Assembly: GCF_016860525.1 (NCBI RefSeq)
Contig: NZ_BNEA01000001.1
Coordinates: 558,001 to 622,000, forward strand
Source of the DNA: Streptomyces rubradiris
GTDB lineage: Bacteria > Actinomycetota > Actinomycetes > Streptomycetales > Streptomycetaceae
DNA: 64,000 bases
Direction of reading: 5' to 3'
Shown: positions 61,628 to 64,000 of the stretch, piece by piece
Layout of the letters: every line of letters begins with the position of its first letter
Position numbering within the stretch: position 1 is the stretch's first letter
Translations under genes and position numbers: made by a program
Notes under the pieces: model-generated
Database searches by the model: none
Told to the model about the DNA's origin: nothing
What the model saw: only the letters and a program-made list of their open reading frames with translations

Positions 61628-62197
61628 TCACCGGTCACACAGCAACCAGCCAGCAGGGCACCAGGGACGGCCGCAGTAGCGAGAGCCGACTCCGGGCCGT
61701 GCGGCTTCGGCGCTGCGGAGGTTTCCGGTGTTTGCCACCATCTGCTGCCGGCCCTCGGGGTCGGCGCCGCGGAAGAAGCTGGGGACGTCGGTCCCGGGCA
61801 CACCGGCTACAGCCTTCATCCGGTGGTCGGTCTGGGCGGCGTAGGGGGCATAGGCGCCGGAGCCGCACACGCCCATCACGCCGATGCGGTCTGGGTCGAT
61901 CTCGGGGCGGGTGGTGAGGTAGGTGACCGCCGCGCGGAAGTCCTCGGCGCGCTGGAAGGGGTCCTCCAGGCCGCGGGGCACGCCCTCGGATTCGCCCTGG
62001 AAGGCGGCGTCGAAGGTCAGGACGGCGAAGCCTTCCTTGACCAGGCGTGTCGCGTACGTCGCCGGCGCCTGCTCCTTGACTCCGGTCGTGGGGTGGCCGA
62101 CGACGATGGCGGCGAGCGGGCCGTCGACGCCGTCGGGGAGGTAGAGGTGGCCGGCGAGCTGCGGGCCGTTGGCCGGGAAGCGGACGTCAGTCCTCAT
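61628..62197 (-). pseudogene. Alpha/beta hydrolase, C-terminally truncated
   Basis: The first 150 residues are a normal hydrolase: GHLYLPDGVDGPLAAIVVGHPTTG, VLTFDAAFQGESEGVPRG and the nucleophile region VMGVCGSGAYAPYAAQTDHR. After PSFFRGADPEGRQQMVANTG the sequence changes to an unrelated tail (RSAEAARPGVGSRYCGRP) and stops, so the C-terminal third with Asp and His of the triad is missing. It is probably a remnant of a roughly 300-residue enzyme. GTG 62203 is an alternative start. Confidence 0.7.
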
Positions 62198-62393
62198 TGC
62201 CACAGCTCAGCCCCGTTCGAGCGGCTTCAGCAGCGCGACGCGGGCCCGGCGCCCCTGTCCCCGGGCGGCCGGCCCCGCCCTGGCCGACCTCCTCCTCCCG
62301 CCATCTTCGGCCACCCCGTCGGGATAGCCTGCGGCGGCGAGGTCGGCCCGACAGGCGTCCTCGGTGACCGGGCCGGTGGCCCTGGCATACCTC

Positions 62394-62510
62394 CTACCGG
62401 TTGCGGCGTCGGTTGATCACGATCGGTATGACGACGCAGAGGATGGCCACGATGAACAGGAGGACACCGAGCGTTCCCCCGGGAGTCACCTCTGTACGTG
62501 CGAATTCCAT
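62394..62510 (-). CDS. 38-residue single-helix membrane protein
   Basis: MEFARTEVTPGG, then a hydrophobic helix LGVLLFIVAILCVVIPIVI and a basic end NRRRNR, giving a small single-pass protein with its C-terminus likely inside. ATG 62510 overlaps the stop codon of the 78-residue gene (TGATG) and GGGAGAGG lies upstream, so it is translationally coupled to it. Too short for standard gene finders. With the neighbouring gene it may form an immunity pair for the RHS tip; that is inference. Confidence 0.65.
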   Translation of the reverse strand: MEFARTEVTPGGTLGVLLFIVAILCVVIPIVINRRRNR

Positions 62511-62746
62511 CAGCTGACCTCTCCCTTACCGCCGGGACGCTTGTTGCGGAATGACAGGTAGACCAGCAGGCAGACGGCATCGGCGACGACAACCACGATC
62601 AGCAGCGGATACGCGGCACCGAGCCCTCCTTTCGCCCACAGGAGCACGGACAAGGCGTAGGCGACCAGGGAGGCGAGGGCGACGATCAGGGCGTTTCTGC
62701 GGATTGCCTGCCTGCTGCCGTACAAATTCTCGAAGGTTCGTCCCAC
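62510..62746 (-). CDS. 78-residue two-helix membrane protein, candidate RHS immunity protein
   Basis: Two transmembrane helices: ALIVALASLVAYALSVLLWA (about 19-38) and AAYPLLIVVVVADAVCLLVY (about 44-63), with basic ends (RQAIRRN, RNKRPGGKGE). Start GTG 62746 is fixed by AAGGAG six bases upstream. It lies 49 bases after the RHS stop codon, the usual place of immunity genes of polymorphic toxins. Two-helix proteins often protect against membrane-active tips. No family recognised. Confidence 0.75.
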   Translation of the reverse strand: MGRTFENLYGSRQAIRRNALIVALASLVAYALSVLLWAKGGLGAAYPLLIVVVVADAVCLLVYLSFRNKRPGGKGEVS

Positions 62747-62762
62747 TGTGTCTCCTTGGCGG

Positions 62763-62792
62763 ACGGGCGGCCACCCGGTGGTGGCCGCCCGT
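62763..62792 (-). terminator. Intercistronic hairpin after RHS gene
   Basis: ACGGGCGGCCAC (62763-62774) pairs perfectly with GTGGCCGCCCGT (62781-62792) around a six-base loop. It starts just after the RHS stop codon and ends before the ribosome site of the two-helix gene, so it may be a terminator or an attenuator that sets different levels for the two genes. Confidence 0.55.
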
Positions 62793-62795
62793 CGT

Positions 62796-64000
62796 TCATG
62801 ACTTCAACTCGTTCTCGACTGTGTTCGAGGTCCAGTCGCCCACGGCAGTGCTCGCGTAACCGCACCCTGCTTCGACGGCCACTGCTCCGGCGCCTGCGGT
62901 GGGTGCTCCGGCAACGCCGGCCACGAACTGGCAGGCGGACTCGACCACGATGCCGGCCGCGATACCGGAAACCTGGGCTACCAGAGCGTCCGTGTCGCCC
63001 TGTGCGGCGCTGGAGACGGCGTCGTAGGCCTCCTTGCCGTCGTCGACAGCGTCGGCCAGGCTGTAGAGCCCGTTGGGGTCGATGCGGTTGACGGGGTCGC
63101 CTTCGGCGTAGAGGTAAGGGTTCTTCTCCTGGCCGGAGGGGTCGGGCTGGGTGAAGCGACCGATGTTGGCGTCGTAGTAGCGGGCCTTGAGGTGGTAGAG
63201 GCCGGTGGGGTCCTGGTAGTTGCCGACGAACCGGTAGGGCTGGTCGACCGGCTCGCTGGACTGGGCCAGCAGACGGACGCCGCGGGGGCTGTAGGTGTAG
63301 GTGTCGACCTTGTTGCCGTCTACGTCCACCAGACCGATCACCGAGCCGATCGCGTCGGTGAGGTAGTAGTAGCTCCTGCCCCCGGTCGTCATGGAGTTCA
63401 ATGTGCCCCCGGGCTCGCGGTTGAAGCCCATGTCGACCCCGCCCGTCGACTTCGCCGACAGGCCGAGCGGGCCGTTGTGGAAGTACGTGTCACCGAGCCG
63501 GATGCGTTCGCTCTGGTCGGTGGAACCGTACTGGCCCGCGTAGGTCTTGTCGTTGACGGTAATGGACGACATCCGGGAGTGGTCGGTCCACGTCTCGCCG
63601 GTGCGCAGGTAGTCCGTCGGTGGAGGCGCCGGCGGTCTCGTTGCCGACCGGGTCGTAGGACCAGGTGCCGCTGGTGCCGGACTTCGACGTGAGTTGCTGG
63701 GCGTCGTTGTAGGTGTAGGTGGTGGTGCGGGGGCAGCCTTGGTCAGTGCCCTGGGAGGTGAGGTTGCCGGCGAGGTCGTAGCAGTACTGCCAGGAGTCGA
63801 CGACGCTTCCGGCCTTGACCTCGCCGGCGTAGGAGAAGCGGCCCGCGCCGTCGTAGGTGTAGGTGCGCTTGCGGCCGGTGACGTTGTCCGTCATGGTGCG
63901 GATCTTGCTGCCGTCGGTGGCGTTGTTCGTGCCGTAGCCGTAGGTGTAGTCCAGGTCGACCAGGGTTCCCTGGTCGGAGGTCACCTTGATGTTCTTCGGC
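62796..64000 (-). CDS. RHS-repeat protein with variable C-terminal tip, 5' end outside window, frameshifted
   Basis: The visible 3' part has YD-type repeats (YTYDGAGRFSYAGEV, WQYCYDLAGNLTSQG) and the RHS core (FVGNYQDPTGLYHLKARYYD, GRFTQPDPSGQEKNPYLYAE, DPVNRIDPNGLYS). The tip of about 90 residues after DPNG contains a glycine-rich hydrophobic stretch (VAGVAGAPTAGAGAVAVEAG) and ends WTSNTVENELKS. Near 63615 the frame changes by one base between NETAGASTD and DYLRTGETWTDHSRM, so the gene is split unless this is a sequencing error. RHS proteins carry toxins in their tips. The gene continues beyond the window. Confidence 0.85.

Follow-up and report, generated by a model that had tools for sequence, protein, structure and literature searches.

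A hydrophobic two-cysteine RHS tip followed by two small membrane-protein genes in Streptomyces: a probable membrane-toxin and immunity module, here in a decaying cassette

The end of an RHS gene in Streptomyces rubradiris raises the question of what a short hydrophobic tip, followed at once by two very small membrane-protein genes, might do for its host. The locus lies on the minus strand of the window (the whole stretch of 64,000 nucleotides that we analysed, from a genome of 9.05 Mb). An open frame of 258 aa (62796..63572) covers the C-terminal RHS core, which ends in PVNRIDPNG and gave a 77.6-bit match to TIGR03696 (Rhs_assc_core), and continues into a hydrophobic, Ala/Gly-rich candidate toxin tip of 91 aa, including the leading G (62799..63071; stop codon at 62796-62798). 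The tip is followed by a 14-bp GC-rich hairpin (62762..62793) and by a gene for a 78-aa two-helix membrane protein (62510..62746), candidate immunity protein 1, which has a GTG start with AAGGAG 5 bases before it. Candidate immunity protein 2, a 38-aa one-helix membrane protein with an ATG start, is encoded at 62394..62510, and the stop codon of the 78-aa gene and the start codon of the 38-aa gene overlap by one base in the sequence TGATG. The initial annotation had described a tip of about 90 residues after IDPNG, a hairpin and two overlapping small genes, and this layout was borne out. Downstream of the cassette, a dienelactone-hydrolase-like (alpha/beta-hydrolase) frame at 61628-62203, also on the minus strand, seems shortened and has an unrelated-looking tail; the gene that adjoins the upstream end of the RHS region is presumably of the ROK type.

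The window tip contains 21 Ala and 12 Gly in its 91 residues and no Arg, and its two Cys residues (tip residues 47 and 70) lie in the motif GDTxAL...C...APTxG...C. The glycine-zipper character that had been ascribed to it was rejected by a shuffle test, since the order of its residues showed no excess over composition: the single GxxxG was reached or exceeded in 3947 of 5000 composition shuffles, and the count of small-xxx-small-xxx-small patterns was reached in 1533 of 5000. Structure modelling placed three helices in the tip at low confidence (mean pLDDT 55.4) and two helices in the 78-aa protein (mean pLDDT 63.1). The spacer between the tip and the 78-aa gene was predicted to fold at -35.6 kcal/mol (z -4.9), a value matched by none of 200 shuffles. 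A strong spacer hairpin was present in all five folded loci of the same tip class (z -2.2 to -4.9) and in G116 (z -5.7), and three other folded loci (L053, L047 and L046) had no strong hairpin at this place.

No named toxin family matched the tips at a meaningful score, with three tips compared to Pfam, 15 to NCBIfam and a profile to PDB; the window tip had no Pfam match up to E 1, and the PDB profile search gave two weak, chance-level matches, neither of them named Tse5. For the 78-aa protein, matches to FeoB_associated (Pfam, E 0.44) and ArnF (NCBIfam, E 0.0024, 18 of 99 bits) were below the cut-off, and a weak match of two members of the two-helix alignment to MFS_1 (best E 2.2e-4) was read as generic hydrophobic similarity. 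Neither the tip nor the small proteins have a family name in the libraries searched, in agreement with the initial annotation, which had recognised none of them. In the literature on Streptomyces that we searched, which covered few subscription papers, no title or abstract opening described such tips, and there was little on Streptomyces RHS proteins as weapons.

Comparison with intact relatives revealed that the RHS gene of the window is broken. Its two pieces, which lie in two different frames, align to residues 642-874 (86% identity) and 875-1146 (88%) of P0008, an intact RHS protein of 1146 residues from S. galbus. The later piece is the 258-aa frame that carries the tip; the upstream piece runs from 63616 to the window end at 64000 and on to about 64314 in window numbering, where the homology to P0008 ends. 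Residues 1-641 of P0008 have no counterpart in a 19-kb stretch, barring a weak repeat match (P0008 residues 569-628, 38%) that overlaps the first RHS piece, and the complete N-terminal delivery part, present in G071 and P0008, is missing in the window genome. Because the window RHS gene is 5'-truncated and split between frames, its product would be undeliverable as a full RHS protein; judged by its sequence, the window cassette is a decaying remnant in which the tip and both small genes are intact. The tip-bearing intact relatives comprise six RHS proteins with annotated lengths of 981-1,163 residues, and the RHS frame of G071, with RHS repeats and DUF6531, has 1,140 residues. An N terminus resembling a signal sequence, as judged by eye, was seen in P0008, G071, G231 and G200 and was absent at the annotated starts of P0007, P0009 and P0011.

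The tip and the small genes are inherited together. A single-sequence search with the tip gave matches in 18 of 392 Streptomyces genomes, and the 78-aa gene was found in five of the 392 (G000, which is the window genome, G071, G154, G200 and G325). These five are exactly the genomes with the five best tip matches (E <= 1.1e-10; next 5.3e-6), and in all of them the 78-aa gene lies immediately downstream of the tip, with no example in an unrelated context (5/5 genus matches beside the tip). The S. galbus locus is the sixth of this tip class and the sole locus from a scan of genome contigs with the 78-aa protein. All six loci also have the 38-aa gene, and in none of the six did the tip occur without either small gene, as the predicted co-occurrence of the tip and the 78-aa gene would have it; the tip of G325 carries an internal stop. 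Among 5.8 billion database proteins, a search with the 78-aa protein gave five matches including itself; one of them, P0005, is partial and chimeric-looking, and the relative P0002 shows 97% identity. The tip region of G071 had six matches in the same database, all of them RHS-type proteins. Between loci the sequence switches sharply past DPxG, from a conserved core end to a variable tip. Variation of RHS cores under one tip, a check named in the initial annotation, was found in a single case among six proteins: P0010 bears the tip at 74% identity, and its core shares just 31% identity with the core of P0006; for comparison, core identity between P0008 and P0006 is 67%.

Both small genes are under purifying selection and evolve as proteins, with dN/dS values of 0.07-0.39 across seven computable comparisons. 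The comparison of the window with S. galbus gave 0.17 for the two-helix gene and 0.24 for the one-helix gene; in the same order, the comparison with G071 gave 0.39 and 0.27, and that of G154 with G200 gave 0.14 and 0.07. For G154 and G325, the two-helix gene had a ratio of 0.07, and in another one-helix comparison the synonymous sites were saturated. The values for the window reflect mostly the period before the RHS gene broke. Together with the presence of both genes in all six loci, these ratios place the two tiny genes beyond chance. The dN value in comparison with S. galbus climbs from the core (0.021) through the tip (0.067) to the 78-aa gene (0.193), and that of the 38-aa gene (0.051) lies outside this rise.

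To follow the tip beyond its own class, we used profile A2, an alignment of 15 tips that comprised the usable-frame matches of the tip search, the S. galbus tip and a copy from contig 7 of the window genome; the downstream ORFs of many of these tips were already known before the alignment was made. A2 matched 44 of the 392 Streptomyces genomes. In a phylum-wide draw of 396 genomes, which contained an uncounted number of Streptomyces genomes, matches at E <= 1e-4 came from the genome of the window and from one genome of another genus. By these profile matches, the window tip is one of many in an unnamed superfamily that is almost confined to Streptomyces. Exactly two Cys residues, 16-24 residues apart and mostly flanking a turn like AP(T)xG, were present in all 26 superfamily tips matched over both helices (the 31-residue fragment of the G126 tip is outside this count), and the 14 tips that we measured stop cleanly 84-99 residues beyond the core motif. 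The copy on contig 7 (L053:2456-4378) is a second broken RHS remnant of the window genome; its two-Cys tip, related at 35% identity, precedes a 68-aa two-helix gene.

An ORF of 30-110 residues with a predicted membrane helix and a start within 150 bases of the tip was present behind 29 of 32 examined tips and behind three of 40 comparison RHS genes (Fisher p 1.7e-13). Such an ORF was also present behind 12 of the 14 tips first found via the profile. The three tips without it were those of G376 and G292, in a degraded RHS context, and G247, whose tip frame runs on. In G247 (L045/L069), the tip frame has no stop and enters a sequence like that of a two-helix membrane protein, possibly a toxin-immunity fusion or a product of decay. 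The 32 tips were examined first, from 50 profile rows, and the other 18 rows were inspected afterwards. Seven of these later rows were tips that close an RHS frame or lie close to its end (the second copy of G113, G020, G371, G282, G306, the second G378 row and the broken G178 copy), and all seven were followed by a small membrane ORF, bringing the total to 36 of 39; three others (G311, G144 and G288) lie in unrelated-looking frames and had none. Of the remaining later rows, seven are the internal matches described below, and G078 is a decayed remnant in which the ORF counted is not meaningful.

The comparison set consisted of the first 40 Streptomyces RHS rows whose frame spans 1,000 residues or more, with later rows excluded and shorter ones skipped (G017 C200, G007 996211, G014 C76 and two superfamily loci of G000). 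Its three positives, among them a match to the one-helix profile at G016 C19, have short unusual tips of 62, 95 and 86 residues, two of which are net hydrophobic with two Cys. Another control, G014 C255, has an internal match to A2. Behind a fourth short hydrophobic tip among the controls (L146, G002 contig 151), also with two Cys, comes a membrane protein of 189 residues that has two helices at its N terminus as well as a soluble part, which would be a different immunity layout. The fifth short end in the set (L152, 55 residues, with an incomplete core match) had no small membrane neighbour.

The neighbours behind superfamily tips are two-helix proteins (mostly 66-78 residues) or one-helix proteins (mostly 38-50 residues), the latter often with LA[RK]...P[DEG]G ahead of the helix and a basic end. 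Both kinds are present in the window tip class, in reversed order at G229, and perhaps at one copy in G135, where a one-helix gene is followed by a 90-aa two-helix ORF. A single neighbour was found elsewhere, of the two-helix kind at G116, G126, G340 and G343 and of the one-helix kind at G277, G231 and G205. In Mantel tests, the similarity of the neighbours followed that of the tips, with r 0.86 across 19 two-helix pairs and r 0.83 across 13 one-helix pairs; each test reached the permutation limit (2e-4). These correlations are inflated by pairs of close relatives and include the G126 tip as a 31-residue fragment.

The profile of the one-helix protein matched 59 of the 392 genomes at E <= 0.01; we regard its lower rows as noise because they include stretches inside longer proteins (L108 and L109). 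The check for small genes in unrelated contexts, set out in the initial annotation, was negative for the 78-aa gene (5/5 beside the tip), whereas the one-helix family is less exclusive: its members lie behind other tips, form arrays close to RHS remnants (G213 and G114) and occur in the decayed remnant G078. In G213 (L157), a different short two-Cys tip is followed by one two-helix and several one-helix genes, and more clusters of small membrane ORFs lie near RHS ends in G114 (L158) and G135. The genes behind the RHS ends of G213 and G114 are non-identical one- and two-helix genes and resemble immunity arrays. On contig 66 of G135 (L048), four RHS ends with different short Gly/Ala-rich tips were observed within 20 kb, with many small membrane ORFs among them, like an island of tips and immunity genes. 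In addition, a LLAKGAGQGTPPFW-like one-helix subfamily occurs in six stretches of 11-12 kb (L159-L164, from G171, G383, G127, G177, G270 and G371) that gave no hit to two short RHS motifs; a looser version of the motifs recovers seven of eight known loci, and a hidden RHS remnant nearby is possible. Relatives of the LLAKGAGQGTPPFW-like proteins follow superfamily tips in G178 and G205. The LLAKGAGQGTPPFW-like genes are possible orphan immunity genes, which would explain a one-helix subfamily without detected RHS motifs.

These observations bear on what the hydrophobic tip could be other than a toxin. It might be a translocation or anchoring segment left behind after an enzymatic tip was lost, with the small genes encoding partners in assembly or anchoring. 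Seven rows fit this explanation, in that A2 matched Ala/Gly-rich stretches inside large RHS proteins, mostly in frames of about 2,500 aa, at 319-352 residues before the stop (G068, G225, G083, G290, G038, G014 and G315). Since the profile also matches such internal stretches, part of its signal may come from a general hydrophobic segment of RHS proteins, and a shared origin with translocation segments is possible. The loci of the internal matches are L083, L156, L172-L175 and L177, and the match in L083 is followed by pretoxin-like sequence. However, none of the seven rows has a small membrane ORF behind it, whereas 29 of 32 examined tips and three of 40 comparison RHS genes do, and the clean stops of the 14 measured tips, the six annotated RHS proteins that terminate in the tip and the tracking of tip by neighbour sequence all argue against a leftover segment, which we consider improbable.

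One small gene alone could confer immunity while the other, for example, regulates expression or counters a different tip acquired by the locus; other tip classes seem to get by with a single neighbour of either kind, and in G213 and G114 small membrane genes that differ from one another are strung together, which points the same way. However, the window class has kept both genes in six of six loci, and both kinds recur at G229 and in one G135 copy, so that a single immunity gene is plausible but somewhat less than probable. We judge in much the same way the suggestion that the window locus is a decayed pseudogene cassette with no present function, a real prospect that falls short of being the expected one. 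The loss of the region corresponding to residues 1-641 of the relative, the change of frame and the seemingly shortened hydrolase frame beside the cassette speak for it, whereas both small ORFs are intact, with starts and sequence like a ribosome-binding site and low dN/dS against their relatives, and a close relative of the 78-aa protein exists in P0002.

Taken together, the locus is probably the C-terminal module of a membrane-perturbing toxin of a secreted RHS protein, together with a pair of membrane immunity proteins, and survives in this genome as a remnant in decay. Its architecture, read from sequence comparisons, is that of a swappable hydrophobic tip with two Cys, followed by a hairpin and two small membrane genes bound to the tip class. 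The toxin and immunity module proposed in the initial annotation is supported by co-occurrence, conserved gene order, coupled divergence and the comparison set; it requires amendment in that the RHS gene is broken here and the tip is one of many. In a strain with an intact gene, the full-length RHS protein would be secreted and would present or release the tip, in which the conserved turn, and perhaps a disulfide, would close a pair of helices. The tip would insert into the cytoplasmic membrane of competing cells and dissipate the membrane potential, and the 78-aa and 38-aa proteins in the membrane of the producer would block its insertion or assembly, working jointly or each against another form of the toxin. 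In the window genome, the two intact small genes may persist as immunity despite the broken RHS gene.

If this is true, secreted RHS proteins carry an unnamed superfamily of membrane toxins with paired microprotein immunity, and very small membrane ORFs without a family name in the libraries searched acquire a function. Streptomyces compete densely in soil. We also put forward, as a speculation that we hold to be doubtful, that a dedicated RHS shell of Streptomyces (about 1,100-1,250 residues) carries a large, unrecognised superfamily of membrane hairpins, bacteriocin-like, closed by a disulfide and active from outside the target cell, that the defence is a comparably large stock of tiny membrane immunity proteins with one or two helices (single, paired, arrayed or orphan), and that self/non-self recognition might depend partly on membrane microproteins. 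Because the set has sizes of only about 90, 75 and 40 residues, it lends itself to direct tests of toxicity, of specificity and of whether two immunity proteins are required.

Several known systems resemble the proposed module in part. Class IIa microcins such as microcin V are small peptide toxins of the inner membrane, with disulfides possible and a small membrane immunity gene adjacent (PMC10233263), but they are described there as free peptides with a double-glycine leader and a dedicated exporter, and the window tip, as the end of an RHS frame, does not belong among them. CDI ionophore toxins have membrane-depolarizing tips and highly variable, cognate-specific immunity proteins (PMC11630599); the CdiA carrier, entry domain and five-helix bundle reported for them differ from the RHS carrier and approximately three predicted helices found here, and we did not assign the tip to this group. 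Tox-WTIP, a pore-forming polymorphic toxin tip with two predicted membrane helices, is listed with RHS proteins, and the same source gives Imm17 and Imm-CdiI as immunity proteins with two transmembrane regions (PMC3482391). Membership of the window tip in Tox-WTIP was rejected because the Wx[ST]IP and RxxR motifs given in that source are absent and the tip had no Pfam match.

In Gram-positive bacteria, EsxX of Staphylococcus aureus has a membrane-depolarizing toxin tip, and the polytopic membrane proteins ExiC and ExiD are required jointly against external EsxX (PMC12744356). Two different membrane proteins are likewise tied to the toxin locus in all six loci of the window class, and the stand-alone LLAKGAGQGTPPFW-like genes resemble exiCD, which has also been found as orphans (PMC12744356). 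EsxX, as described in that paper, differs in its LXG/T7SS carrier, in a 196-aa tip with a glycine zipper and in the soluble ExiAB proteins besides, whereas the window class has an RHS carrier, a 91-aa two-Cys tip and no soluble immunity gene that we noticed. Tse5 of Pseudomonas aeruginosa is an RHS effector of the T6SS that causes depolarization through ion-selective pores, and its immunity protein Tsi5 has two predicted transmembrane regions (PMC9637101). An RHS carrier, a membrane-active tip (inferred for Streptomyces) and a two-transmembrane immunity protein (a candidate here) are thus common to both. The differences, so far as the published description of Tse5 goes, are that Tse5 starts with a PAAR-like domain and is delivered through the T6SS while the Streptomyces RHS proteins look Sec-secreted, and that Tse5 is paired with one immunity protein and the window class with two candidates; no sequence match between the systems was seen, and a distant structural relation is conceivable. 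The general kind of system is therefore known, and what appears to be new here, as far as sequence can tell, is a superfamily of tips on a Sec-like RHS carrier, accompanied by membrane immunity candidates that pair a one-helix with a two-helix protein.
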